Shown here in pieces: positions 4,715-33,186 of a stretch of 33,186 nucleotides of DNA. Origin of the DNA: a virus; IMG/VR virus record IMGVR_UViG_3300037502_001820, positions 1 to 33,186 of that record. The stretch is one strand, 5' to 3'. The notes below the pieces were generated by a model. That model did not search any database and was not told where the DNA came from. It saw only the letters and a list, made by a program, of their open reading frames with translations. Position 1 is the first letter of the stretch. The number at the start of each line of letters is the position of its first letter. Both the position numbers and the translations under genes were made by a program.

Positions 4715-5614
4715 CTAGATATATGCGCTACGCCACGATACAACACAAGCAGTATTGCCGTCTGTTCCCGTAGCAGTAAAAGTGTAGTACGAAGTTCCGG
4801 GTGGAGCAGCGAACCAAGTAGATGCGTTATTGAGCAACGCTCTGCGTGATACGCCGTTGAGTGTGACAGTTCTGTAATCTGTGTTAAGAATCAACTCATC
4901 TTCCGTGCCGAGAGTTGTGTCTATTTGAAGATATAAACCAGCCGTTACATTCGTGACGCGTGGGTTTATAGCAGGACCTTGAATCGAAATAGTCGGATAT
5001 GTCGTAGTCCAACCATTATTCGTAATAAGGTTTGGCGCACCAGCACCACCGCCGAAATACATACCGCTTTCAAATGGGTTGTTGCTACCCGATGATGGTG
5101 GTTCTGTATAAACACGATTATAGGTACGACCAGCAACAGTAGTCGCGTTGATGAGGTCAGTTGTTTGTAGCGTATCATCGTAATAGCGTGGGTCAGGACA
5201 GAAAAACTCATACATGACTGTCGCTAAACCCGATGAGTATTCGGTGTTGACAGTCAATGCTCTACGGCGAACACGCGCGTTAAAGCGTTGTAAACTACTT
5301 CCCGGAAGTTGAAACTGAAGTAATCCTGTGCCTTGTTGTTGTGGTACGAGGTTTTCTTGTAACAAATCAAGATAGTAGTTCATAGAGTAGTTAGAATCGC
5401 CACGAACTGTCATTGTAAAAACAAGCGTTCTGCCTGAAAGAAAATCGCGACCTGTCCACATACCATCTTGATAACCGCGATTATCGTCTTGGTTACGAAT
5501 GACAGGTAAATCTTCTAATCCGTCAATAGTCATAATCTGATAGACAGAATTGCCACCGCCGAACTCAAAATCATTGAAAGCGAAGCGATAGTTAAGTAGC
5601 GAAGCAACTGGCAT
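4715..5614 (-). CDS. Distal tail (Dit-like) protein
   Basis: 299 residues, directly downstream of the tape measure gene, where siphoviruses usually encode the distal tail protein. The N-terminal half (FAFNDFEFGG...YQIMTIDGLEDLPVIRNQD, then FLSGRTLVFTMTVRG and YEFFCPDPRYY) is typical of the Dit/phage tail component family, which forms the hexameric hub between tail tube and tip. The C-terminal half carries the usual galectin-like extension pattern (NNGWTTTYPTISIQGPA, then LILNTDYRTVTLNG). The start codon lies next to the tape measure stop. Family assignment rests on pattern recognition and gene order. Confidence 0.75.
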   Translation of the reverse strand: MPVASLLNYRFAFNDFEFGGGNSVYQIMTIDGLEDLPVIRNQDDNRGYQDGMWTGRDFLSGRTLVFTMTVRGDSNYSMNYYLDLLQENLVPQQQGTGLLQFQLPGSSLQRFNARVRRRALTVNTEYSSGLATVMYEFFCPDPRYYDDTLQTTDLINATTVAGRTYNRVYTEPPSSGSNNPFESGMYFGGGAGAPNLITNNGWTTTYPTISIQGPAINPRVTNVTAGLYLQIDTTLGTEDELILNTDYRTVTLNGVSRRALLNNASTWFAAPPGTSYYTFTATGTDGNTACVVSWRSAYI

Positions 5615-8600
5615 TATTCATACACCATCTTTCCGCGACCTAAAGTGCGATATTGTACATCGCCCGAAGTGCGAATTGCCCAACCTACATCATCAGCAAT
5701 TGCTTGCGAAGAAGCATTAGTTGTTGCGTTAATAGTAATGCTATTGCCTGTTTTTAGACCTTGTCCAGTAATTGTAGCGAAAATATCTGCGATTCTTTGA
5801 CGCGCGCGTGTTTCGCTTTCCGTATCATCAGGTTTTGCAGATGTAACAGTTCCAACACCATATTGGAATGTTCTTCCGCCAGCCGTGAATGTTTCAGGAA
5901 ATCCTGATGGTGTCGTAGGAGGAATAACAGGAGTAGGCGTGACAGGTGTTGGCACTACTGTCGGTGTTCCTTCGGGTGCGGTCGCTGTTGTAATAACGCA
6001 ACCCATGAAATTCGCGCTGAGTTCAACACCAGCCTCATTGTAAGTAACGCTGAAATTACCTTTGCCTGATGGGCATGTTCCGACACTTACCGCGCGTTGT
6101 TCTGTAACAGTTCTTGTAGTAGGAACTACATTCGGCGCTGTTGCTACAACCGCAGGAGCCTGCAATGTTGCGATAGCAGCCAACGATGATTGTAATTGAC
6201 GAATACGCTCTTGAAGTTGCGAAATTTGTAAATCAATCGCGGCAATCTGTTCGGCGGTGCGCGTGTTGATGACATCTAAAGATTTAGAATATGCATTGAA
6301 CGCTTCTGCAAGTGATTCAGTGAGTTGTTCTTCGTAGCCTTTAAGTTCTTTATTAAGTTCAACTTGAACATTTGCAAGGTCGGCTGTGAGTTGCTCTGTC
6401 GCTAGAACAATGCCTGAGTTCATGCGTTTGGCTAAATCATCTACGCCGTGCGTTGATACGCTCTGCAATTTATCCCAATACGCTTTCATCTGCGCAATAG
6501 ATTCAGGAGCAGAGTTGATAATAGTCTGCGCTAGTTGATGACCAACATCAGGACCTTGCGCTACGACTTCTTCGATGAAAGTTTGTGAGAATCCAAGACC
6601 AGCCAAAGTAGCAGCATCAGCAGCAAGCGTTTCGGCTTTCTTTGTTTGTAGTCCTAGCGCAGCGAGAATACGCTCAGTCGTGCCGCCTTTCATGTAGCGA
6701 CCCTCAAATGTCAAAGCAGAGAAAATATCTCCTACTGTGCGATAAGTAGCGCTTTTGAACGCACCGCGTAGTTGGTCAACGGATTGTTTGACGATTTCTG
6801 CACTACGCTTTGCTGCTGCTTCCTGTGCTGTATAAACATCTTTGTCGTATTGTGCGCGGATTTTTTTGACATCAATGTTGTATTGTTTCTCAAGTTCAGC
6901 GCGTTCTTTGGCTGCTTCTGCTAGCACTTTCGTGCGGTCAGCCTCGAGTTTGCCGATTTCTTTGTATGAGTCTGCGATAGCACGAATCATGTCTTGCTGT
7001 AATTTTTTGATTTCGCCTAACGCTTCACGCATTCCGCCAGCCAAATTATCTACAAGTTCCTCTGCCTTTTTCATCGTGCTTTCAGCAGATAGAATCGCTG
7101 CTTCATTACCGCTTTTAACAGCAGCGGTGTAATCTTTTTGTGCTTTTGTGAGTGTAGCAACAGCAGCGTTGTACTGATTAGATGATGCTTGATACGCATT
7201 GACAGCACTCTGCGCTTGCAAAATCAACTCATCGACAGGATTCATGAGGATATCTTGAACTGATTTGTTGAAATCGGTGCTAACAATGTCTTTCCAGAGC
7301 GCGCCTAATTCTTTGAACTCAGTTTTAGCCTTGTCGTTGAAATCTTTGATGGACTGTAACGCTTGATTCAAGCCTTTAGCAATATCATTAGCGATTGTAT
7401 CGCCAAGAGTTTCGCCATTCTCAAATCCCGGTATTTGCGGAACTTTGAAATCCCATTTGATTTCTAATTTTTTAGAAGTAAAACTGTCAATAGATTTCTT
7501 GGCGCCTTCTAATTTATCTGACCATTTGTCAATAGCCGCATATTGTTTCTCCATCATTCGGAGTCCTGCTTCGGCTTCGCTCGTATCTTTACCGAATAAT
7601 TTGCGTAACGCTATCGCTGCTTTTTGAGCAGCAAGAGGAATTTGATAAATGCCTTGAACGATGTTTTCTACTACATTGATGAGTGTTTGTGCTACTGTAA
7701 TTACTGCTTTGACGACAGAAGCAAAACCTTTACGGAAATCTTCGCTAGAATTGTAAGCCTTGACGAATGCGTAGGCGACAGCAAAAACAAGAACTGCTAT
7801 TCTGCCAAAAGGACTTTTGAGAATAGTCGCACTCAACAACAAAAGTTTTTTGGTTAAACTAACTACTGCTGGTATCAAAGCAATAGTAATTGCTGTGGCT
7901 AACGCTATAACAAAATCGTTATTTTTCTTGATGAACGCGCCAGTATTGTTTAACGCACTAATAAATCTGTTGAGAACAGGCAATACTTTCATGCCTATTG
8001 CCTCAAATAGGTCGCCTAGATTTTCATTGAGGATTGCTAACTGCCCAGCGAAAGTTTTGGCATACGCTTGTGCTTGACCACCTAAGCGTTGTTCTAACTG
8101 CTTCATCGCTTCCGCAGTAGCCTGTGCTTTCGGCTTATTTTGGTCTAATATGATGCCAAATTCTTTGAATACTCTTGCGTTGCCGTTTTGCGCACGAATG
8201 AGTGCTCGCGCTGCTTCTTCCATGCCCATGTTCTTCGCGCGCGCGAGGTCTGCTGACATAGCCAACAAACGATTACTTTTTTCAACATTGCCTGTGGCAG
8301 TAATCAAAACAGCATAAGCATCTGCCGCTTTTTCAGAACCGAAACCTAAACCTTCATAACTCTCAACAAGTTCAGCAACCTGTTGGCGATTTCTTTCAGT
8401 AGATACGCCGACATTCGCCATCGCTTGACCAAGACGATTCATGGACTTTTCTAAATCCATTACAGCCTTGACGCCGATACCCATAGAAACAACAGCAATA
8501 GCACCAAGAGCCTTCAACGCGCCCATGCCAACTACGGCTGCTTTCTGAAAACCTGACAACGCTTTGCCTGTTTTGATGGCTTGCGCTTCCATAGCCTTCA

Positions 8601-8691
8601 ACTGCGTATTTACTTTGCCGAAAGTTGCAATAGCCTGTGTCGCGTTGGCTTGAACTTCAAAGAGGACAGGTGGTAAAAAACTACCAATCAT
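5614..8691 (-). CDS. Tail tape measure protein
   Basis: 1025 residues, the longest gene here. N-terminal coiled-coil/helical region with the typical minor-tail/TMP pattern (YEGLGFGSEKAADAYAVLITATG, then LARAKNMGMEEAARALIRAQ). Hydrophobic stretches at about 260-310 (FVIALATAITIALIPAVV; IAVLVFAVAYAFV) are expected for a protein that is ejected and crosses the membrane. Long charged coiled coils follow at about 560-640 and 800-870. The C-terminal 170 residues are Pro/Thr-rich and then more compact. At roughly 0.15 nm per residue this predicts a tail near 150 nm. No lysozyme or peptidase motif was seen. The start overlaps the upstream stop (TAATG). Confidence 0.92.
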   Translation of the reverse strand: MIGSFLPPVLFEVQANATQAIATFGKVNTQLKAMEAQAIKTGKALSGFQKAAVVGMGALKALGAIAVVSMGIGVKAVMDLEKSMNRLGQAMANVGVSTERNRQQVAELVESYEGLGFGSEKAADAYAVLITATGNVEKSNRLLAMSADLARAKNMGMEEAARALIRAQNGNARVFKEFGIILDQNKPKAQATAEAMKQLEQRLGGQAQAYAKTFAGQLAILNENLGDLFEAIGMKVLPVLNRFISALNNTGAFIKKNNDFVIALATAITIALIPAVVSLTKKLLLLSATILKSPFGRIAVLVFAVAYAFVKAYNSSEDFRKGFASVVKAVITVAQTLINVVENIVQGIYQIPLAAQKAAIALRKLFGKDTSEAEAGLRMMEKQYAAIDKWSDKLEGAKKSIDSFTSKKLEIKWDFKVPQIPGFENGETLGDTIANDIAKGLNQALQSIKDFNDKAKTEFKELGALWKDIVSTDFNKSVQDILMNPVDELILQAQSAVNAYQASSNQYNAAVATLTKAQKDYTAAVKSGNEAAILSAESTMKKAEELVDNLAGGMREALGEIKKLQQDMIRAIADSYKEIGKLEADRTKVLAEAAKERAELEKQYNIDVKKIRAQYDKDVYTAQEAAAKRSAEIVKQSVDQLRGAFKSATYRTVGDIFSALTFEGRYMKGGTTERILAALGLQTKKAETLAADAATLAGLGFSQTFIEEVVAQGPDVGHQLAQTIINSAPESIAQMKAYWDKLQSVSTHGVDDLAKRMNSGIVLATEQLTADLANVQVELNKELKGYEEQLTESLAEAFNAYSKSLDVINTRTAEQIAAIDLQISQLQERIRQLQSSLAAIATLQAPAVVATAPNVVPTTRTVTEQRAVSVGTCPSGKGNFSVTYNEAGVELSANFMGCVITTATAPEGTPTVVPTPVTPTPVIPPTTPSGFPETFTAGGRTFQYGVGTVTSAKPDDTESETRARQRIADIFATITGQGLKTGNSITINATTNASSQAIADDVGWAIRTSGDVQYRTLGRGKMVYE

Positions 8692-23451: not shown

Positions 23452-24318
23452 TCAACCGCCGAGTATGCGCGGTTTCGTTTCGCCTTTCAGGGCGGAAGCG
23501 AATGCGAGTTCTCGCTCGGTTCTGCGTTTGCGTGCTTCGGCTTGTTCGACTGCGTAAGTGAAACAGTCTTTCATACCGCGTAAGCAGTAGTACACGACAG
23601 TATAACGATAGGCGTCTTTCGTGATGTGTTGAATAGGTGTTACGCCGTGAAGTAGTCGGAATCCCGGAAAGAACAACACCCAACCATCGCGGCATTCAAT
23701 AACAGCGTTATATTCAGGAATGCTGAGATAACCACCGCGAGTGCCACGCCGAACAACAGGCATAGCAGACCACATATCAAAATTATTGCCGTCATAATGA
23801 TACGGAAGCGTGGAAGTTTTATTGACAACACCGCTAGTCCAGAGAGAGCGCTCCGAAATGCGCCACTCATCAGCGACCGCCGATGTTTCTTTTGCGTCTT
23901 TTTCATAAATTTCGGGCGCGATTTCGCGCATGATATCGCTCAAAATATCAGCAGTCTGCACTAATACATCGTGTTCTTCGGGTTGTTCGTGCGACATTGA
24001 AGTAGGACGGCAAGCCTCGCGTGTTTGAAATGGTTTGCGTGGTGCCATACCGAAAGTACGACTGTTGTTCTGTACACCTGTGCTGCGTGTTACGCCTGTC
24101 GCGCTGTATTTGATTCCGCGTACTGCGTTACGAAGATTTGCAGTCACCTCTGCGTCCATCTTCAAATAAACAAGGAATGGCTCGCCTGTTGTTTCATCAA
24201 CATAGATGCCTTCTTCAGTAATGTTGGCTTCAATTTCAGGAACAAGTAATCCCTTCATTTCACGCACATCATCACGAGTGATAACTTGCTTGACGGGAAA
24301 TACTGTTAGTTCTCTCAT
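23452..24318 (-). CDS. TET/JBP-family 2-oxoglutarate/Fe(II) dioxygenase
   Basis: 288 residues. A complete double-stranded beta-helix motif set is visible: H174-x-D176 in LPYHYDGNNF, H224 in FPGFRLLHGVTPI, and R238 in DAYRYTVVYYCL for 2-oxoglutarate. The segment SRTFGMAPRKPFQTREAC and the glycine-rich GTRGGYLSIPEYNAVIEC fit the TET/JBP branch rather than AlkB. These enzymes hydroxylate the methyl group of 5-methylcytosine or thymine in DNA. Neighbours are a ParB-like gene upstream (overlapping ATGA) and a glycosyltransferase downstream, then terminase. No DNA methyltransferase is in the window, so a thymine target or an enzyme encoded elsewhere must be considered. Confidence 0.8.
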   Translation of the reverse strand: MRELTVFPVKQVITRDDVREMKGLLVPEIEANITEEGIYVDETTGEPFLVYLKMDAEVTANLRNAVRGIKYSATGVTRSTGVQNNSRTFGMAPRKPFQTREACRPTSMSHEQPEEHDVLVQTADILSDIMREIAPEIYEKDAKETSAVADEWRISERSLWTSGVVNKTSTLPYHYDGNNFDMWSAMPVVRRGTRGGYLSIPEYNAVIECRDGWVLFFPGFRLLHGVTPIQHITKDAYRYTVVYYCLRGMKDCFTYAVEQAEARKRRTERELAFASALKGETKPRILGG

Positions 24319-24953
24319 TGTGTAGGCACCTCAGAGTTGGATAGTTCGGCAATCATGCGCAAAATAGTTTCTGCATTGCTTTCTGTTCCGAAGCGTTCGC
24401 GCAACTCTGTAAGTTTTTCCATCGCCCAAATATATTGATGCTGTGGGAACTCACACATGAGCAGACGAATAGTTCTTTCTGCATAGCGTTGTGCGCGTTC
24501 TTCGAGTGTTGTTGTTGCCAACACATTTTCGTGTGCTGGTGCAGCAGCAACACCAAACTCAGGTGCTTGTTGTTCGTCTAATATCGCGAGCAAATCATCG
24601 ATATCTGCTGGTTGATAGCCTGTTCCTTCTAGCGAAATATCTTCGAGTAAATCTAATAATGCTTGTTCGTCATAAGTGCCGAGGTCAGCAAGACGATTAT
24701 CAGCAGCAACAATTTTCTTTGCGCCTTCGTCATCAACATCTATTTCAACGATATTGATTTCTGTCCAACCTAAAGATTGTGCGGCTTTCCATAAATGATT
24801 GCCTGCAAGAATTTGTTTCGTATCTTTGCGAACAACGATAGGTTTATATTGTCCATTCGCGCTCAATGATTCGGCGAGTGCTTTGACATTTCCTTTACGA
24901 GGATTGCCTTCAAACTCTTTCAAAGTATCGATTGATACCGATTTTGTTTCCAT
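24315..24953 (-). CDS. ParB-like nuclease domain protein
   Basis: 212 residues. The N-terminal 95 match the ParB/sulfiredoxin-like fold: FEGNPRKGNVKALAESLSAN, YKPIVVRKDTKQILAGNHLW and AADNRLADLGTYDEQAL. In place of the common GxxR the motif reads GNHLWKAA, as in many phage versions. The C-terminal half is helical without a clear DNA-binding motif. ParB-like proteins accompany TET/JBP and glycosyltransferase genes in phages, where they may act as nucleases, nucleotide-binding factors or DNA-modification accessories. The start has a strong GGGAGG ribosome site. First gene after the 24982-25010 hairpin. Confidence 0.82.
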   Translation of the reverse strand: METKSVSIDTLKEFEGNPRKGNVKALAESLSANGQYKPIVVRKDTKQILAGNHLWKAAQSLGWTEINIVEIDVDDEGAKKIVAADNRLADLGTYDEQALLDLLEDISLEGTGYQPADIDDLLAILDEQQAPEFGVAAAPAHENVLATTTLEERAQRYAERTIRLLMCEFPQHQYIWAMEKLTELRERFGTESNAETILRMIAELSNSEVPTQ

Positions 24954-25998: not shown

Positions 25999-26338
25999 AG
26001 CCATTCCTTTCGAGATATTTATAGGTGCCTTCCTGCGTCAGTATAACAATATCCCCGTTCGGAAGCGTAACAGGACACTCCGCAGGGTCAGCCCAACTTG
26101 AAACCATATAGCCTTTTTCAAGTGCGCTGCTAGGGTTGTTATGTACCGAATCCGTGTCGAGGTTGTGACACTCATGGTGTAACGCAAGAAAATTAGCGAT
26201 TTCGTCTTTGCCGCCACGACTACGCAATTTGCGATGATGAAGCGCCCAAGAGTGTGGAAGTGACCCACCGCATTTTTCGCAGTACCCTCTCGCGCGTGCC
26301 CAAGTCAAAGCGCGTAGTACCTCTAGTTGCTGAGCCAT
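25988..26338 (-). CDS. HNH endonuclease
   Basis: 116 residues from an internal ATG at 26338. The longer frame (to 26437) would overlap the upstream gene deeply, so the shorter start is preferred. Motif: CEKCGG, then WALHHRKLRSRGGKDEIANF and LALHHECHN, then VHNNP, a complete zinc-stabilised HNH fold. In phages HNH proteins near terminase help DNA cleavage at packaging. Here the gene lies among replication genes, so it may instead nick DNA during recombination or be a homing-type nuclease. Neighbours overlap at both ends. Confidence 0.82.
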   Translation of the reverse strand: MAQQLEVLRALTWARARGYCEKCGGSLPHSWALHHRKLRSRGGKDEIANFLALHHECHNLDTDSVHNNPSSALEKGYMVSSWADPAECPVTLPNGDIVILTQEGTYKYLERNGYGW

Positions 26339-26841
26339 GTACGCAACTTTCCAGTCATCGGGTCTTTGCAAGCAGTATTGACACAGACGAACATATCGTT
26401 TATACGCATCACGGATTTGTGCGCACATTGTCCGCACATCATTTCGGACTCGTAGGTATAAATGTCGCCGTCATTGACTTTGACCCGAATACGGGTATGC
26501 CAATGGATTACCTCATCGCCTAAAGTTTTCGACAGCGATTTGCGTTTGCGAACGATATCTTCCCATACGAGGTTGAGCCACTCGATTCGTGACATAACAA
26601 GTGGACATGGACCTACTTCTGTTTTGCGAACAGGCACAGGTAACGCTTGTTGAATTTCGCTCGCGACAAAATATGTCGTCTTGTGTGTCCATTTATGAAA
26701 ATCTAACATCATGCTAAGAGTGCCAAGTGGTAACGGATAGCGCTGCGAAAATTTCGGCGCGCGCCCTTTCTCTCCTGAATCGTGTTTGTAATATTCCCAC
26801 ACTCGGGGATAGTCGCTCAGGATTTCTTCTAATAATTTCAT
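26323..26841 (-). CDS. Hypothetical protein with C-terminal zinc-ribbon motif
   Basis: 172 residues. The N-terminal two thirds are unrecognised (YPLPLGTLSMMLDFHKWTHK and IEWLNLVWEDIVRKRKSLSK). The C-terminus has a MCGQCAHKSVMRINDMFVC...TACKD stretch, two Cys pairs in a zinc-ribbon arrangement. The gene sits between RusA and HNH genes with overlapping ends, so a role in DNA metabolism or transcription control is possible. Confidence 0.65.
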   Translation of the reverse strand: MKLLEEILSDYPRVWEYYKHDSGEKGRAPKFSQRYPLPLGTLSMMLDFHKWTHKTTYFVASEIQQALPVPVRKTEVGPCPLVMSRIEWLNLVWEDIVRKRKSLSKTLGDEVIHWHTRIRVKVNDGDIYTYESEMMCGQCAHKSVMRINDMFVCVNTACKDPMTGKLRTWLSN

Positions 26842-27215
26842 GTGCCTAGTTGCTCAATCGTTATCCACACGCCTTCCACAGACCCGTATGATTTACTTGC
26901 TGAGATTAGCGTTACTTGCGCATCATCAACATAAGCAACACCCGTGAGTCCATCAAGAACTGCGCGAATTAGTTTATCTAAATCAGGCTTGACCCATGGC
27001 ATTGAACGCAGACTTGTTTTTGGTTTGATATAAATAAATTCACAACTAACTTTCACAGCACCATCAACAGGTCGATAGCCTGAGAGTTCTGCGTTACGCG
27101 CAATATCAGCACGCCATACTGCTAAATCTGTTGCTCTTGCGTGAATAGGGCGACCATGAATAAATTTCAGCGAACCCTGCGGAACGGGTCGCCCTTTCAC
27201 GAAGAACGAATCCAT
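26838..27215 (-). CDS. rusA: RusA-type Holliday junction resolvase
   Basis: 125 residues from an ATG at 27215 that overlaps the upstream stop as TGATG. The longer frame to 27248 runs into the preceding gene. Conserved features: VKGRPVPQGSLKF near the start, FIYIKPKTSLRSMPWVKPDLDK without the first two residues, and the acidic catalytic set in KPDLDKLIRAVLDGL (D78, D80, D88) and AYVDDAQV (D97 or D98). RusA dimers cut four-way junctions formed by recombination-dependent replication before packaging. RecT, nuclease and SSB genes nearby fit. Confidence 0.9.
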   Translation of the reverse strand: MDSFFVKGRPVPQGSLKFIHGRPIHARATDLAVWRADIARNAELSGYRPVDGAVKVSCEFIYIKPKTSLRSMPWVKPDLDKLIRAVLDGLTGVAYVDDAQVTLISASKSYGSVEGVWITIEQLGT

Positions 27216-27673
27216 CAATACCACCGATTCTTTTGCCAAAATTGCCAAGCGTTACATGGATTATTGTAACGGATAGAAATATAATTCAATCCCCAAACTA
27301 TCTGTCCTCGCGTGTCGTTGAGGAAAGCAGTTTTTTGGGCTTGAGTATTTCTTGGCATATTGCGTTGTGGTATCCCATGGTCATTGGTAGGGCTGACTGC
27401 TTTCGGATTCCATGCGGACTCTTTGCCCCATAGTTTCGATAGGCAGCCATACTGCTGTTTGCCCCATGCATATTCTGTCTTGGCAATATCACGAGCAATT
27501 GCCCTAGGGTCTGTCAATTTCTTGACTTTCACAGGGTCTATGACTGGTGACATAGTTGCCGATAACGGCGCTGTGAAGGTGAATAGGGCTGCGAAATACG
27601 CAATCGCTAGCCCTCGTACCTTCCATTTTCTTTGAGCCTTCCTATAGCCTTCTACGGGTTTTATTGTGCTCAT
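27215..27673 (-). CDS. Membrane-anchored transglycosylase-like (SLT-fold) protein
   Basis: 152 residues. A basic N-terminus precedes a hydrophobic segment at about 20-39 (GLAIAYFAALFTFTAPLSAT), a signal anchor or signal peptide. The C-terminal half resembles actinobacterial lytic transglycosylase-like domains: YGCLSKLWGKESAWNPKAV with the candidate catalytic E85, then HGIPQRNMP, GQIVWGLNYISIRY and a closing NPCNAWQFWQKNRWY. It would cut or bind peptidoglycan outside the membrane. It lies among replication genes, away from a lysis cassette, so it might help entry-stage or early wall remodelling, or serve as an endolysin. Confidence 0.78.
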   Translation of the reverse strand: MSTIKPVEGYRKAQRKWKVRGLAIAYFAALFTFTAPLSATMSPVIDPVKVKKLTDPRAIARDIAKTEYAWGKQQYGCLSKLWGKESAWNPKAVSPTNDHGIPQRNMPRNTQAQKTAFLNDTRGQIVWGLNYISIRYNNPCNAWQFWQKNRWY

Positions 27674-27982: not shown

Positions 27983-28167
27983 TACATACCCTTTGTTCGG
28001 AATGGATTTTTTCTTGGTTTGTACGGGCATTCCTCAAGGTGCGCGTCCATTTTTTCGCCCACTCCTTCGTGCCTACCCGATTTCCAGATGACTATGAAAC
28101 CACAATTGTGAAAACAACTCATGCTCTCATAGCCTTCTGGAATCTCGTATCCGTTTTCTAGTATCAT
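27982..28167 (-). CDS. Small zinc-finger-like protein
   Basis: 61 residues. CFHNCGFIVIW, then MDAHLEECPYKPRKNPFR, giving C-x3-C ... H-x3-C ligands like a short zinc finger. The tail is basic, consistent with nucleic acid binding. Starts four bases inside the initiator gene's end (ATGA) and ends on the next start, so it is coupled to both. Confidence 0.6.
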   Translation of the reverse strand: MILENGYEIPEGYESMSCFHNCGFIVIWKSGRHEGVGEKMDAHLEECPYKPRKNPFRTKGM

Positions 28168-29003
28168 GCTTTCCTATCCGCATACATTCTTTGGGCTATC
28201 CTAAACGCATAACTCACAAGGTCAGTCAAATCTTTTGCGGCTGCCTCGTCAATAGCGAGTAGGGCTATTCGCCCGAACCGCTTGGTCATTTGACCAATAC
28301 GGCTAATCTCTGCGGAAGTCAGTTTGCGTGACTGCAACTCAGCGACATACCACGCTGTCAGCGCGATACACCCACCGATATCGTTGTTGATATGCAGCGT
28401 ATCCCACTCGTCCTCGACCAACCGCGACAGATTCCATGCGTTGATACCCTGCGAACGCGCATCTGCAAGTTTGCTGCTAATCCTGATAACAGAATCCTTT
28501 GCAGACTTCACGCGTGGCAGCGGAATCGGAGTATCCGATTCGTATGGTTCTACCTCTTTAGATATATCGATAGATATATCTAAAGAATTGGGTTGGGTTG
28601 GGTTGGGTTGGGTTGGGGTTGGCGTTTCGAATTCGTTTCCGAAGTCATCAGGAAACGCATCGGAAACGCGTTTCTTTTGCGTTTCTCGATACTTTGCCAA
28701 CCTCTCCCGTGCCTCTGCTCGTTTGCCCTCTACCTTCTCCCGTGTCGGTTGATACTCGTCATACGAGCGTATTTGAAATCCCTTCGCCGTGCGTTCCCAT
28801 AGGTTTTGGTCCTCGAGTTCGTCACTTGGCTTTTCAGGATTATCGCCTACCCACGCATTGACGATTTGATATGGGATATGCCCGTCTGTCAGTTGGCGGT
28901 TGGAATAGCACAGTCCTGTTATGAACAGGCGAAATGCCGTATCCGACAGTCCAATGACTTTCGGGTGGTCTGCGAAATTGTCGTCTAGCCGTACCCAGCC
29001 CAC
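28164..29003 (-). CDS. Replisome-organizer-like replication initiator
   Basis: 279 residues from a GTG overlapping the upstream stop (TAGTG). N-terminal winged-helix domain typical of phage replisome organizers (WVRLDDNFADHPKVIGLSD, then FRLFITGLCYSNRQLTDGHI). A charged linker (residues about 90-160) is followed by a helical C-terminal domain (ARSQGINAWNLSRLVEDEW, then LTAWYVAELQSRKLTSAEIS). Such proteins bind the origin and load helicase. The linker-coding DNA (28555-28685) carries an inverted repeat, a GGGTT array and six GAAACG motifs, so the origin may lie inside the gene as in lambda O. Confidence 0.75.
   Translation of the reverse strand: MGWVRLDDNFADHPKVIGLSDTAFRLFITGLCYSNRQLTDGHIPYQIVNAWVGDNPEKPSDELEDQNLWERTAKGFQIRSYDEYQPTREKVEGKRAEARERLAKYRETQKKRVSDAFPDDFGNEFETPTPTQPNPTQPNSLDISIDISKEVEPYESDTPIPLPRVKSAKDSVIRISSKLADARSQGINAWNLSRLVEDEWDTLHINNDIGGCIALTAWYVAELQSRKLTSAEISRIGQMTKRFGRIALLAIDEAAAKDLTDLVSYAFRIAQRMYADRKA
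28555..28685. other. Candidate replication origin inside the initiator gene
   Basis: Three elements lie side by side: a perfect 14-bp AT-rich inverted repeat with a 4-base loop (28555-28568 and 28573-28586); five tandem GGGTT units plus a sixth altered one (28590-28620); and six copies of GAAACG/CGTTTC in both orientations (28622-28685), including a 12-base perfect palindrome at 28663-28674. All are in the part encoding a low-complexity linker of the initiator. Iterons next to an AT-rich segment inside the initiator gene is the lambda-type origin layout. Origin function is inferred. Confidence 0.5.
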
Positions 29004-29233: not shown

Positions 29234-29325
29234 GCTTGCGCTCCTTCGTGTTCGAATTCGCATTCGTCACAATGGCACCAATCGCAACCTTCTATCGGAC
29301 ACTTGCCCCAATTGTCATCAGTCAT
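29230..29325 (-). CDS. 31-residue Cys-rich protein
   Basis: A very short ORF with a strong AGGAGG ribosome site: MTDDNWGKCPIEGCDWCHC, then DECEFEHEGAQA. It has five cysteines and two histidines in 31 residues, suggesting metal binding. Its start overlaps the nuclease gene's stop and its stop overlaps the next start (ATGA), so it fits exactly in the operon. Confidence 0.55.
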   Translation of the reverse strand: MTDDNWGKCPIEGCDWCHCDECEFEHEGAQA

Positions 29326-30277
29326 CGTTGCCTCCTGTTGCTTTCACGGATAGACGCGCAGAGTCCTTGCCGACCTTGAATGGAACATATCCAAGTTTTT
29401 CGAGGACTTCTGCTTCGTCGATGGATTTTCGTCCTGCTACGGACGACCAAACGATTTTCAAGCCCGATACAGTAGTTCCGTTAGCGCCTTCAAGAAATCC
29501 TTTGAGTCCGTCTTTTTCCGCCTCTAGTTTCCGTATCTCATCGCTAACTCGAAGATAGTCCTGTGCGACCTTATCAACGATAGGGTCAGGAATGTTGAAA
29601 CTATCGGCTTCTGATTTTGACCGACCAGCACAACCCTTCGTGCCTGTCTTGTCATAGAACTCGCAGTAGTTACGGCAGAACACCGCGTCTTTTTCAGGCG
29701 CAGGTGGGTTCTTTGCGAACTTTACTTCCGACAACCATGCGAACGCTTCATTTGCAACATTCGCATCGTACGGCTCGCTGTGATAAACAATGTCGTTTTC
29801 AGTACCATCACGCGGAATAGCAACAAGCGTAACAGTATTTACTTTCTGACCTAGGACATTTTCAATGAGCCAGCCGTATAACTGAACTTGCCAGCGCTGT
29901 TGTCTGCTCGGAAAATACGCAAGGTTGCGCATCTTCGTAGATTTCCAGTCAATGACTTCGCCCAATTGTTTATCGAACATATCAACATGACCACGCAGTT
30001 GTGCTTCTTCTGAATACACTTCTGTTTCCAGCAAATATCGTTCGCCGAATGGGTCAAGACGATGAAACGCCTGTTGAATGTACGAATGTATTGCTGTTCC
30101 CATCATGCTACTGAAACGCAATAAATTGCTGTTCGTTTTTTCCGCGCCGTTGATTTGTAGCCACAATTTGCGTGCGCAACTACCTACCTGACTCGGACCT
30201 ATATCAGTTTGCTTGCCGCGTGATTCTGATAAACCAGCAGCAGTAATGGCTTTGACTAATTCATTGGCTGCTGACAT
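29318..30277 (-). CDS. RecB/Cas4-like PD-(D/E)XK nuclease
   Basis: 319 residues. Nuclease core: GTAIHSYIQQA (H64), E85, GHVDMFD (D99), VIDWKSTK (D110, K112) and WQVQLYGWL (Q131), the RecB-type motif order. Four cysteines (C34 in GSCARKLWL; C201, C205, C216 in FCRNYCEFYDKTGTKGC) could hold an iron-sulfur cluster as in Cas4 and AddB. The C-terminus has a short coiled coil (YLRVSDEIRKLEAEKDGLKG). With the RecT-like gene it probably forms an exonuclease/annealase pair for phage recombination. Confidence 0.85.
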   Translation of the reverse strand: MSAANELVKAITAAGLSESRGKQTDIGPSQVGSCARKLWLQINGAEKTNSNLLRFSSMMGTAIHSYIQQAFHRLDPFGERYLLETEVYSEEAQLRGHVDMFDKQLGEVIDWKSTKMRNLAYFPSRQQRWQVQLYGWLIENVLGQKVNTVTLVAIPRDGTENDIVYHSEPYDANVANEAFAWLSEVKFAKNPPAPEKDAVFCRNYCEFYDKTGTKGCAGRSKSEADSFNIPDPIVDKVAQDYLRVSDEIRKLEAEKDGLKGFLEGANGTTVSGLKIVWSSVAGRKSIDEAEVLEKLGYVPFKVGKDSARLSVKATGGNDD

Positions 30278-30543: not shown

Positions 30544-30894
30544 TTACGCTATGTCCATTGAAGCGCGTACGGAGGTTCCGATAGAACGCGCAATATCTAC
30601 TTGAGTGCGAACGCGAGCAGCATTTCCGCGCGCAGCCTTCACTAATGCTTCGGCTGTTTGAAGTTGATGCCATTCCTGTTCACATTCGACAAGTGCTTTG
30701 TCAGCAACATCGCCTACGCGCAATTTCAGATTATTCATGCCAATGTTTAATCTTGCCCGAGCGATAGCGATTTCGAAAGTTGCCTTGACGCCGTGATATA
30801 ACTTCTCAGCATCTACAAGTTCGTCATGCGCTTTGTCGATTTCCTTGCTAAGTTCGTAGAGTCTTGCCTCTACTCGTTCAGGTGTTATCGTCAT
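30544..30894 (-). CDS. Hypothetical helical (coiled-coil) protein
   Basis: 116 residues from the ATG at 30894, which overlaps the upstream small ORF's stop (ATGA) and has AAAGG upstream. A longer frame to 30924 is not needed. Almost wholly helical with heptad-like spacing (YELSKEIDKAHDELVDAEKL, then KALVECEQEWHQLQTAEALV). Possibly a structural or regulatory partner in the replication region. No domain recognised. Confidence 0.6.
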   Translation of the reverse strand: MTITPERVEARLYELSKEIDKAHDELVDAEKLYHGVKATFEIAIARARLNIGMNNLKLRVGDVADKALVECEQEWHQLQTAEALVKAARGNAARVRTQVDIARSIGTSVRASMDIA

Positions 30895-31058
30895 ACTTGC
30901 CTTTCCGTTCCGCAGGTGGAACATGGTTGTTTATGAATATTCCACGCACCGCAATACGCACATCGCGCAATAGGTTCGTGTCTTGCTGGTCTTGTTGCCG
31001 GAACAGCGTGAGGGTATGTCAATGCCCACCCGTCACGCCACGAATATGAACCTGTCAT
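30891..31058 (-). CDS. 55-residue zinc-ribbon protein
   Basis: A short ORF: MTGSYSWRDGWALTYPHAVP, a linker, then ARCAYCGAWNIHKQPCSTCG and TERQV. Two CxxC pairs spaced as in zinc ribbons. The start overlaps the secreted protein's stop (ATGA) and the stop overlaps the next start (ATGA), filling a 160-base gap. Function unknown. Confidence 0.6.
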   Translation of the reverse strand: MTGSYSWRDGWALTYPHAVPATRPARHEPIARCAYCGAWNIHKQPCSTCGTERQV

Positions 31059-31690
31059 GACTCAAGCCACAATAGGAACTCTGCCCACAATTCTTGCCAA
31101 CGCGCTAACCATTCGATTAGCGATTCTGAGAATAGAGGAATTTCAGGTTCGGGTTGCGTTTCGACAGGTGCAGTCGTAGTCGTTGTCGTATCTGAATTTA
31201 TGACAGCGCCAACAGTAGCCGTATCTGCGACTGTTGTGACTGTGCTTGTTTCTGTAATGACTGTGCTTGTTTCTGTTGTGTTCGTAGGTGTTGGCGTAGG
31301 TGTTGGCGCAACAGGTTGTGGTTTAGGTTCAGGCGTAGGCTGTGGTTCTACTACTGTCGGCGTGACAATGACAGTAGTTTGCGTAGGTGTTATTGCCACG
31401 AATGTATTTTTCGTAGGTTCTTCTTTGACTACGAGAATTTGATTCGGTTGCGCACCGATTCCTGAATTGTTGCCATTGCTATCTGTCCTGCCTTGTAACA
31501 CATAGCGTTCCCCTGCTTTCAATGTTAGTCGTGAATACAGAGAATTCGGGTCGCCACAAGTACCAGCATCGCAAACGATTGCACCGCTTACGACTACACC
31601 ATTACTATCAACGATGACATACACATCTGCTCGCGCAGGAATAACTGTTGAAGCCAATAGAACAACTAACAATATGATTAGTTTTTTCAT
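31055..31690 (-). CDS. Secreted Pro/Thr-rich protein with Trp-rich C-terminus
   Basis: About 211 residues from the second of two adjacent ATGs, which has better spacing from GGAG. Clear signal peptide (MKKLIILLVVLLASTVIPARA) with cleavage likely after ARA. A small globular domain follows (DVYVIVDSNGVVVSGAIVCD, two Cys). Then a long Pro/Thr/Val linker (PQPTPEPKPQPVAPTPTPTP) and a Trp-rich amphipathic end (SLIEWLARWQELWAEFLLWL). It would be exported and may sit at the membrane or wall. Possible roles include superinfection exclusion or surface modification; neither is proven by sequence. Confidence 0.65.
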   Translation of the reverse strand: MKKLIILLVVLLASTVIPARADVYVIVDSNGVVVSGAIVCDAGTCGDPNSLYSRLTLKAGERYVLQGRTDSNGNNSGIGAQPNQILVVKEEPTKNTFVAITPTQTTVIVTPTVVEPQPTPEPKPQPVAPTPTPTPTNTTETSTVITETSTVTTVADTATVGAVINSDTTTTTTAPVETQPEPEIPLFSESLIEWLARWQELWAEFLLWLES

Positions 31691-32259
31691 CATCGCTCCT
31701 CGAATAAAAACGCAGGATGCTCATTGCGTTCTACCCAAACAATGCAGTCATGCCCTTTGTCGTTCTTGCGTGTTCTACCTGAATCTATTAGGTAGCCATC
31801 ATCAACGAGTGTTTTTCTTGTAGGGCGGAATGTGTTTCCATCGATGCCGAGAAAGTTTTGCGCTTCATCATCAGTCGCACCATACACACCGCGTCCTGTG
31901 AAATACGAGTGAACGCGGTGACGAATAGTTCCTGAACGCGGCAATACAGATTCGGCAGCAGCACGGCTTGTTCGCTGTGCTTTCTTGCCGACTATCACAG
32001 TATTGTCGGTGACGGCGCGCAATGGTTCTTTCTTGCGTAGCGCTTTCTGCGTGTGATAGTGCTTAACGATGATATCGTAGACTTCTTCCATTGTTTGGTG
32101 ATAGCAAGTTTCGCCCGTAGCGTCCATTTTGATAGCGTCAAAATTGGCAGGGTGAAACAGGCATACGAAATTATCGTGGTCGCCTATCCATGGCAAATAG
32201 TCGCTAGGGCGCGTGAGTTGTTCCTCGCACCAATAGCAACTATCTTGTAGTAGTTCCAT
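31690..32259 (-). CDS. Protein with N-terminal Cys motif and winged-helix domain
   Basis: 189 residues. N-terminus CYWCEEQL...NFVCLFHPANFD, a CxxC plus C...H metal site. Middle is basic (KKAQRTSRAAAES). The C-terminal 80 residues look like a winged helix: GTIRHRVHSYFTGRGVYGATDD, then FRPTRKTLVDDGYLIDSGRT and CIVW. This could be a DNA-binding regulator or replication accessory. Overlaps both neighbours. Confidence 0.65.
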   Translation of the reverse strand: MELLQDSCYWCEEQLTRPSDYLPWIGDHDNFVCLFHPANFDAIKMDATGETCYHQTMEEVYDIIVKHYHTQKALRKKEPLRAVTDNTVIVGKKAQRTSRAAAESVLPRSGTIRHRVHSYFTGRGVYGATDDEAQNFLGIDGNTFRPTRKTLVDDGYLIDSGRTRKNDKGHDCIVWVERNEHPAFLFEER

Positions 32260-32431
32260 GTTCTTTCCTTCCTTCTGCTAGTGCCTCTAGGAACAAATCG
32301 CAATTGTCGCGAGTCCAACGCATAGTGGCTTCCGCTAAATCGGTGTCGCCACTTTGCGCTGCGTTAAATAATTTCTTGCTGGCTTGCGTAAGGAAATCCG
32401 CAACCATTGGATTCAGCGTGTTGTTAATCAT
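32240..32431 (-). CDS. Hypothetical small helical protein
   Basis: 63 residues from the ATG at 32431; a TTG four codons earlier is possible. Sequence MINNTLNPMVADFLTQASKK, then LAEATMRWTRDNCDLFLEAL. Helical, no recognised motif. The start overlaps the RecT-like gene's stop, so it is probably translated with it. Confidence 0.55.
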   Translation of the reverse strand: MINNTLNPMVADFLTQASKKLFNAAQSGDTDLAEATMRWTRDNCDLFLEALAEGRKEHGTTTR

Positions 32432-33186
32432 TGTTGGTCGCAACTTTCTCTAGTACCAACATACGCAGAGTTTTGCCTTCGCCATCAGGAACGATTTCGT
32501 CTAGTAAGGTTTTGTTTTTATCCCAAAACTTTTTCAAATCTTCCTTGTTTTCGCACTCGTTGAATTTTTCCATGATGCCTTCCCAGTCGGTTTGGCTTTG
32601 AGGCGATACAGGCTGGACGACCTCAGCCACCACAGGCTCTAGAGTGACCTTTACAGGCTTGACTGTGGAATCCTGACCCGAATCCGCTTGGCTCATTTCC
32701 TCGTCTGTGTATAGCCCTGACAAATCGTTTGGAAACGCCTTGCGTAGCGCCAAAGATTCAGCGCATTTTGCGAGCATCAGGTCGGGCATTTTTTTCCACA
32801 CGGGCGATGCCAACGCATACGAATCCCATTTCGCTACTGCGTATAGTGGCTCGGCAAATCCTTTGCGATATACGCCAACTTTCGCTGCGTATGGTGAGGT
32901 CTTGCCAATCCAAACATCTTTCCATACGCCATCTTCGCCGCACCAAAATGGTCCTGCTTGTCCTGCGTATTCGCCTGAACGCTGCGCAACGATACGCAAA
33001 CCATCAACAGATGTTTGTATTCCGTAGCGTCCGCCTCGTTCTATCATGTAAATCTGACGAGCGAATGGGTCGAGTCCTGTTTTCTGTGCTTGATGAAAAA
33101 ATACGGCGAGGTCGCCGTTGCTCGCATTGTTCAAGCCAAGTTGCTTCAACGCAGCGAGTTGTTGATTTGACCAAAAATCTTGGTCG
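32424..33186 (-). CDS. RecT/Bet-family single-strand annealing protein, 5' end cut by window
   Basis: The frame is open to the right edge, so the true start is outside. Visible N-terminus DQDFWSNQQLAALKQLGLNN, then the family hallmark FHQAQKTGLDPFARQIYMIE, GIQTSVDGLRIVAQRSGEYA and DLMLAKCAESLALRKAFPND. These are the conserved core of RecT/Redbeta-type annealases. The C-terminal 90 residues are a variable linker and a short helical region. It anneals ssDNA during phage recombination, probably with the PD-(D/E)XK nuclease at 29318-30277 and SSB. Confidence 0.92.
   Translation of the reverse strand, partial: DQDFWSNQQLAALKQLGLNNASNGDLAVFFHQAQKTGLDPFARQIYMIERGGRYGIQTSVDGLRIVAQRSGEYAGQAGPFWCGEDGVWKDVWIGKTSPYAAKVGVYRKGFAEPLYAVAKWDSYALASPVWKKMPDLMLAKCAESLALRKAFPNDLSGLYTDEEMSQADSGQDSTVKPVKVTLEPVVAEVVQPVSPQSQTDWEGIMEKFNECENKEDLKKFWDKNKTLLDEIVPDGEGKTLRMLVLEKVATNND

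Follow-up and report, generated by a model that had tools for sequence, protein, structure and literature searches.

The origin of phage lambda sits in the middle of the gene of its initiator O, where iterons are followed by an AT-rich tract, as described in the available part of PMC7466680. In pSK41 Rep, a winged-helix N-terminal domain of about 120 residues binds boxes that lie midway through its own gene, the linker coded by the origin is dispensable, and the helical C-terminal domain binds primase, according to the accessible text of PMC5703833. At ori2 of Vibrio cholerae, RctB binds first to six iterons and then, on the strand that has opened, to six ATCA repeats (accessible portions of PMC11711613 and PMC10797057). 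DnaA boxes and DnaA-trios likewise combine a duplex initiator box with a short motif that is repeated near it, at the unwinding region (available part of PMC10797057). For short tandem arrays inside phage initiator genes, no description was found in the titles and abstract starts listed by searches of open-access literature.

The locus considered here belongs to a stretch of viral DNA of 33,186 nucleotides, which was analysed as a whole and is referred to as the window. In the sense of the initiator gene, a cluster of iterons (28685 to 28622) abuts a short tandem array (28622 to 28588), and beyond the array lies an AT-rich dyad (28586 to 28555). These elements and the genes around them are the following:

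28164-29003, minus strand: replication initiator gene, 279 aa, GTG start, N-terminal family PHROG 2447/3926
28656-29003, minus strand: winged-helix domain and long helix (residues 1-116), from the AlphaFold model
28622-28685, no strand assigned: iteron cluster with six copies of GAAACG(C), in both orientations, and with three same-strand pairs 11 bp apart
28623-28628 (-), 28634-28639 (-), 28652-28657 (+), 28663-28668 (+), 28669-28674 (-) and 28680-28685 (-): exact GAAACG sites
28663-28674, no strand assigned: 12-bp palindrome GAAACGCGTTTC, made of two abutting GAAACG sites, by direct reading
28588-28622, no strand assigned: tandem array of TTGGG on the plus strand, CCCAA in gene sense; TRF score 61, perfect over 28588-28617
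28555-28586, no strand assigned: AT-rich dyad TCTTTAGATATATC-N4-GATATATCTAAAGA, next to the 3' end of the array as read in the gene
28170-28508, minus strand: C-terminal helical domain (residues 166-278), with many invariant residues within the close family
27215-27673: transglycosylase (SLT) gene, just downstream of the initiator region
29318-30277: PD-(D/E)XK exonuclease gene, from the Pfam/PHROG search
32424-33149: RecT gene, from the Pfam/PHROG search

The lambda-type layout proposed in the initial annotation stands to the extent that the iterons lie in the middle of an initiator gene and are followed by AT-rich DNA, as at ori-lambda. It does not extend to the 11-bp period and the inserted tandem array. 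The lambda O iterons, as given in the lambda annotation, are imperfect inverted repeats of 18-19 bp, whereas those of the window have a 6-7-bp core and an 11-bp period, and the AT-rich tract of the window is separated from the iterons by the array, while lambda is without a short tandem array (no perfect 4-9-nt array of at least 16 nt was found in it). Among the Pfam and PHROG matches of the window protein there is no O-like family. With RepA_N initiators such as pSK41 Rep, the locus shares a predicted winged-helix N-terminal domain, an element in mid-gene and a helical C-terminal domain, origin activity being a prediction in the case of the window. pSK41 Rep differs in having four Rep boxes, with no 5-7-nt array mentioned in the accessible text of PMC5703833, and the fold match of the window protein is not significant and comes without a Pfam family.

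Short direct repeats adjoin the iterons in the window and its relatives, as in RctB-type origins, where regular iterons are also found next to short direct repeats; in the accessible portions of the ori2 sources, those repeats lie in the DUE and are bound single-stranded. The ori2 system differs in being chromosomal and helped by IHF and DnaA, and its repeats are regularly spaced and, in the same portions, not described as head-to-tail. The DnaA-trio is a trinucleotide read by DnaA, whereas the window has 5-7-nt units and a winged-helix phage initiator.

The initiator gene and its repeated DNA

The assignment of the gene as a replication initiator is supported by the match of residues 1-161 to PHROG 2447, 'replication initiation protein', in a PHROG profile search (E 4e-33), and by the confident winged-helix model predicted for the N-terminal domain. 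The profile of this domain matches PHROG 2447 and 3926 with E values of 4e-33 and 8.8e-20, respectively. A Pfam search with the 279-aa protein at E ≤ 0.1 gave no family, and RepA_N (PF06970) was not matched; profile searches against PDB sequences yielded no hits beyond those at E 0.27 and 0.031, which were regarded as chance. The AlphaFold model of residues 1-118, built from 74 sequences, has a mean pLDDT of 95.5 and displays a winged-helix pattern, after which a long helix extends over 88-116.

The top three Foldseek ranks for the N-terminal domain are 4pt7, 4pta and 4pql, none of them significant (E 0.27-0.39). They are labelled 'initiator', 'MDR initiator' and 'DNA binding protein', that is, as initiator or DNA-binding entries, and we take all three to be RepA_N initiators. 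VIA-align gave Z values of 6.2-6.9 over about 80 residues for 4pql, 5kbj, 4pt7 and 4pta, which are equalled or exceeded by the winged helices of ORC2 (up to 7.9) and MCM8 (7.1), in the range 6.8-7.9. The full-length model has an overall pLDDT of 65.7, with its minimum at residues 119-158, between the long helix and the C-terminal helical region at 166-278, and a fold search with it gave nothing at E ≤ 0.001.

The iteron cluster lies about 319-415 nt into the gene. The six GAAACG copies reported in the initial annotation were found as exact sites (for five of them, the coordinates given there span the heptamer GAAACGC), and the 12-base palindrome in mid-cluster was likewise read directly. The sites code for residues 107-127, approximately, which comprise the end of the long helix and the start of the disordered stretch; the earlier description of this part as a charged linker between two domains is roughly right, the motifs reaching from the helix into the linker.

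It had also been proposed that the clustering of the motif stands out, rather than its overall number, and this is borne out by the counts. GAAACG occurs 27 times in the whole window, where 21.75 copies are expected, and is not clearly enriched, since 27 is attained in 10 of 100 shuffles. When 27 sites were placed at random, six within 64 bp were obtained in none of 20,000 trials. When the codons were re-drawn according to the codon usage of the genome with the protein unchanged, six GAAACG within 64 nt occurred once in 20,000 trials, and shuffling the codons within the gene gave no such case in 20,000. A scan of all hexamers on both strands found five or more copies per 64 bp only at the GAAACG cluster and at the adjacent TTGGG array, with no equal density of the motif elsewhere in the window. 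The cumulative GC skew, another check proposed for the origin, has no turning point near 28.6 kb; the skew is uninformative here, and the window is possibly incomplete.

Both the TTGGG array and the 14-bp stem were omitted from the initial annotation. No other perfect 5-7-nt array of the window is as long as that at 28588-28622. The dyad at 28555-28586 forms a perfect stem of 14 bp, and the strand around it folds with a z value of -6.6. The iterons, the CCCAA array and the AT-rich hairpin all code for the linker that follows the winged-helix domain. A hidden internal start with a Shine-Dalgarno sequence in the hairpin was weighed by eye and dropped.

Conservation in close and distant relatives

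The search of IMG/VR gave 68 relatives, from which 59 genes were taken and, together with the window, reduced to 15 distinct linkers with a CCCAA array. GAAACG precedes the array in all 15, with one to six copies in the preceding 80 bp; 12 linkers have two or more copies, and L006, L009 and L011 have a single one. Of 31 forward copies, 27 are located at exactly -11, -22, -33 or -44 from the array start, and this 11-bp grid holds in 14 of the 15 linkers, L022 being one base off. The same-strand spacings (n=19) are of 11 bp in 15 cases, 22 bp in three and 35 bp in one. These linkers share descent, and the grid counts are not independent events.

A step of 11 bp is not divisible by three, and the motif accordingly occurs in every codon frame: of the forward copies, 16, 9 and 6 fall in the respective frames, in addition to three reverse copies, and the motif codes for G-N-A, E-T-Q or K-K-R depending on the frame. 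At the level of sequence, the codon nulls, the use of three frames and the grid show that the DNA itself is constrained, beyond the peptide that it codes for.

A dyad 3' of the array is found in the window, L003, L007, L009, L011 and L013, with stems of 10-14 bp. L022 has a different stem of 8 bp in this position, and the remaining close linkers have none of note. Between some of the dyads of L003, L007, L009, L011 and L013, paired changes are observed in both arms (CTCTTTAG/CTAAAGAG, CTCATTAG/CTAATGAG and CCTTAG/CTAAGG), which look as if the dyad itself were kept.

Conservation of the cluster, a check proposed in the initial annotation, is thus observed in most of the close linkers, and at greater distance the motif is changed: in distant relatives with the same domains another repeated motif often, but not always, replaces GAAACG. 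By eye, a second clade has the iteron-like motif TAACGCG(TTA) and an array of the 7-mer AGAATAC, and a third clade has the motif TTACTAATG and an array of the 6-mer ACAGAT. In such farther relatives both parts differ in sequence and their order is kept (TAACGCG with AGAATAC, GTGAC with CCCGA, GTAAGCA with CCCGTA). After truncated and near-identical loci had been removed by hand, 48 of the 68 IMG/VR loci were used; in 40 of these, the locus has its longest 4-8-nt array in the linker, and the other eight are without a perfect array there.

Fourteen actinophages (L134-L147), chosen from 106 matched records, are related to the window through the winged-helix domain. Their iteron-like motifs, identified by eye, are GTGAC, GTTCG, CGTTACG, GTAAGCA, GAACGCCGTTCC, GCATTGC or GCTAGCA, and their arrays, also by eye, consist of CCCGA, CCCGT, CCCAT, CCCGTA, CCAAGA, AGACAG or ACAG. 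Perfect 4-8-nt arrays of at least 14 nt directly follow the winged-helix part in 13 of the 14 (Jinkies being the exception) and in the MAG locus L071, and each of these arrays is the longest of its locus. L071, from a MAG labelled as a proteobacterium, was the one candidate confirmed among 26 in a prophage scan of genomes. A near-identity search for the window among GenBank phages gave no match.

The annotated gene of Sarge, Anatole, B22 and Sonali stops after the winged-helix domain, and the array is found in a gap of 189-211 bp before the next annotated gene, a gap that also contains most of the iteron-like repeats. The array in these gaps is spanned by frames of 93-141 aa that have a start codon, so that a small gene may have been missed in the annotation of the four phages. 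Sarge (L143 1915-2050) and Sonali (L146 1955-2070) have a common stretch 3' of the array, noticed by eye, with CTTGRGTGCCT..CTCACCAAT..CTTTTC and TCAATCAATCGTC, which may represent another conserved element, of the origin or of an RNA. Gene 65 of Vasanti (L147 1495-2289) is labelled 'HNH endonuclease' in NC_070797, yet it is an initiator relative by tblastn, and the label is likely a misannotation on this sequence evidence.

Five complete genomes (Appa, Anatole, Sarge, Vasanti and MrSmee) were compared with the window by an unguided scan, the choice of the genomes having been made after their linkers were viewed and hence not blind. In all six, the longest perfect 5-7-nt array lies in or just after the initiator gene, and in five of the six it is the sole 5-7-nt array of 20 nt or more. 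The predicted element extends over about 30,580-30,715 in Propionibacterium phage Anatole, about 26,330-26,480 in Microbacterium phage Appa and about 43,550-43,643 in Gordonia phage Vasanti. In the unguided hexamer scan, the iteron-like cluster comes first or joint first only in Anatole and Sarge; the array is at the top in the window, Appa and MrSmee, and an unrelated place is at the top in Vasanti.

From short arrays to initiator genes

The association was also examined in reverse, by scanning viral contigs for exact arrays, which gave 74 loci for CCCAA, at least 120 for CCCGA, 41 for AGAATAC and at least 120 for ACAGAT. The array lies inside an ORF that matches the winged-helix profile in 33 of 74 CCCAA and 36 of 41 AGAATAC loci, fractions that are partly circular because some of these contigs trained the profile, and, among the matches listed, in 72 of 120 CCCGA and 13 of 120 ACAGAT loci. 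It follows such an ORF within 400 bp in one further CCCAA locus and no AGAATAC locus, and, among the matches listed, in six CCCGA loci and no ACAGAT locus. Among the 62 CCCAA loci that have a covering ORF, 33 match phrog_3926. Many of the remaining CCCAA and CCCGA loci seem unrelated by eye and represent a real background.

The longest of the ORFs that cover an array runs in the array's sense direction in 55 of 74 CCCAA and 39 of 41 AGAATAC loci and, among the matches listed, in 90 of 120 CCCGA and 117 of 120 ACAGAT loci; only one ORF matched by the winged-helix profile is antisense to its array. From the CCCGA matches listed, 109 ORFs were aligned. For ACAGAT, the array starts 105-182 residues into the ORF in 96 of 119 ORFs among the matches listed.

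The families of the ACAGAT proteins were determined from the parts that precede the array, because the DT repeat could inflate PHROG matches of the whole ORF. Of the 120 loci listed, one has no ORF and 15 have the array less than 60 or more than 300 aa from the ORF start, which leaves 104 N-terminal parts. Among these listed matches, 57 match phrog_3926, 'replication initiation protein', and 50 match phrog_10469, 'DnaD-like helicase loader'; 18 match DUF1376, 13 Phage_rep_org_N, three DUF6291 and one Lin1244_N, and the families may overlap.

As a control, arrays that code for (Asp-Thr)5 in any codons were collected. The 120 stretches listed comprise 69 new loci and, by subtraction, 51 that were already in the ACAGAT set. 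Of the new loci, 68 are not purely GATACA, and the exclusion of three without an ORF and 32 that fail the same position rule leaves 33. In these, where other codons give the same peptide, the N-terminal parts are initiator-like in three of the 33 among the matches listed: three match the unnamed phrog_16304, 19415 and 15768, and two match 'primosomal protein' phrog_6451. The 33 also include one terminase, one head protein and one further unnamed family. Of the matched families, phrog_16304, 19415 and 6451 were found within the ACAGAT set as well. Initiator-like N-terminal parts are therefore rare in the control (3/33) when compared with the ACAGAT set (at least 57/104), which indicates that it is the DNA unit, and not the peptide, that marks initiators. 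From their N-termini, we infer that the three matching control proteins resemble DUF6291 (L536 and L538 with GATACT, L552 mixed). The arrays of L536 and L538, DUF6291-like by eye, are of GATACT and not GATACA, and GATACT is perhaps another variant of the array.

The surroundings of the arrays were compared across the four sets. The 15 bp 3' of the array are AT-rich in all of them with respect to the mean GC of the locus (0.28 versus 0.52, n=27; 0.41 versus 0.65, n=67; 0.29 versus 0.42, n=30; 0.33 versus 0.51, n=96). Decay of the array cannot explain this for the CCC arrays; for ACAGAT and AGAATAC, whose units are AT-rich, it could do so partly. On the 5' side, a hexamer occurs at least three times in the 90 bp before the array in 75% of CCCAA (n=24), 78% of CCCGA (n=64), 33% of AGAATAC (n=18) and 58% of ACAGAT (n=89) loci, versus 9, 11, 5 and 7%, respectively, in control stretches of the same loci; these counts are on non-redundant loci, and some of the hexamers are plain purine-rich words.

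Known intragenic systems were inspected for similar arrays. TP901-1, whose origin we take to lie inside its initiator gene, has one perfect 4-9-nt array of at least 16 nt, outside rep, and none at rep. In ydaU of Rac there is no perfect 4-9-nt array of at least 16 nt, and a degenerate ACAGAT-like stretch is seen by eye. Given that lambda and TP901-1 are without such arrays and that of Rac ydaU is degenerate, the array is common and not universal. In ydaU of E. coli K-12 Rac (DUF1376; L579 9320-10177), repeats of the TGTTCAAACA type come before this degenerate stretch, and together they are a candidate for the Rac origin, presumably the one named oriJ.

The putative origin and its alternatives

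The sequence of iterons, array and AT-rich DNA, the spacing grid and the recurrence of the array with initiators are read directly from the DNA. With this arrangement, the site is probably the replication origin of the phage, embedded in the part of its initiator gene that codes for the linker. The best reading of it is an intragenic origin in the style of lambda O and RepA_N, with a short-array module that is apparently undescribed.

We infer the origin activity itself, as well as four steps of a mechanism and the protein that would read the array. In the first step, the N-terminal winged-helix domain would bind the GAAACGC iterons in double-stranded form, and their 11-bp spacing would put adjacent protomers on the same face. 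The protein assembly would then grow with fixed polarity into the abutting tandem array. In a third step, the adjoining AT-rich tract or hairpin would open, and one of the two array strands would be retained as a repeated element for recognition, single-stranded (or as altered duplex). By analogy with RctB on the ATCA repeats of Vibrio ori2, it may be the initiator that holds the array single-stranded; a host factor could read it just as well, or it could fold, in the case of the CCC types. Finally, the C-terminal helical domain would recruit a helicase or primase of the host or the phage.

The folding of the array leads to a different view, in which it is a G-quadruplex or i-motif element and not a repeated recognition sequence. 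TTGGG, TCGGG, ACGGG and ATGGG, the complements of CCCAA, CCCGA, CCCGT and CCCAT, do give several G3 runs per strand, and such a role could still hold for the CCC subset. Nonetheless, arrays of AGAATAC, ACAGAT, CCAAGA and AGACAG occupy the same place without G3 runs, and for this reason a quadruplex is rejected as the common principle and is unlikely to account for the array. It is quite unlikely, too, that the cluster serves as an operator through which the initiator operon regulates itself, or in handcuffing or copy control, instead of as a start site. Known initiators do bind inhibitory or self-repression sites as well, such as the 29/39m sites of RctB (accessible portion of PMC11711613), but the cluster of the window is about 319-415 nt inside the gene, away from the promoter, and is coupled in fixed order to the array and the AT-rich tract.

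That the repeats serve the protein, as a flexible low-complexity linker that arose by codon repetition or slippage and has no role as DNA, would agree with the low model confidence of the stretch, which is like that of disordered linkers, with the low-complexity peptides coded by the arrays (PTQPN, RIQNTEY and DT repeats) and with the open frames across the annotated gaps of the split actinophages. This explanation is very improbable and was largely rejected, since GAAACG occurs in all three frames and both orientations on an 11-bp grid, the codon nulls do not reproduce the cluster, the array lies between annotated genes in four actinophages, and (DT)5 arrays in other codons have initiator-like N-terminal parts in only 3 of 33 cases among the matches listed. 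A partition (parS-like) site for a phage ParB-like protein is scarcely credible: the window has a ParB-like partition gene at 24315-24953 (PHROG 723, E 5e-45), and Miko and Rachaly have a parS locus of five direct repeats just downstream of repA (available part of PMC7157519), but many phages have the element together with an initiator gene, and a ParB-like product is annotated only in Appa among the five complete actinophage genomes.

Returning to the site as an origin, the families in which arrays were found are of the PHROG 2447/3926 type, DUF1376, Phage_rep_org_N, DUF6291 and Lin1244-like, with CCCNN(N), ACAGAT, AGAATAC and CCAAGA as units. We tentatively propose that several initiator families share an undescribed origin module, which would consist of a head-to-tail array of 5-7-nt units with fixed polarity between iterons and an AT-rich tract, usually within the gene after the winged-helix domain, and which would mark an origin by sequence alone. 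Given that the unit drifts between lineages, and that the array, its period class and its position stay, the reader of the module may be a shared host factor, or else oligomers of the initiator that track the repeat.

To our knowledge, the replication origins of most phages are unmapped. For extrachromosomal mycobacteriophage prophages, the available part of PMC7157519 reports no repeats in the regions examined and a suspected origin in or just upstream of repA. If the proposal is true, a short array directly after the winged-helix domain of an initiator would allow the origin to be predicted in hundreds of phages, cultured laboratory phages among them, and odd linkers such as PTQPN, TDTDTD and RIQNTE are explained as by-products of DNA signals. 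The natural variants of iterons and arrays on a common initiator scaffold offer a series in which to see how winged-helix initiators open DNA.

Two further observations concern other parts of the window. The protein of 1025 aa coded at 5614-8691 has no PHROG match at E 1e-5. At 31237-31308, within the ORF at 31055-31693, two perfect tandem repeats lie next to each other, one of 21 bp in 1.9 copies and one of 12 bp in 2.2 copies.
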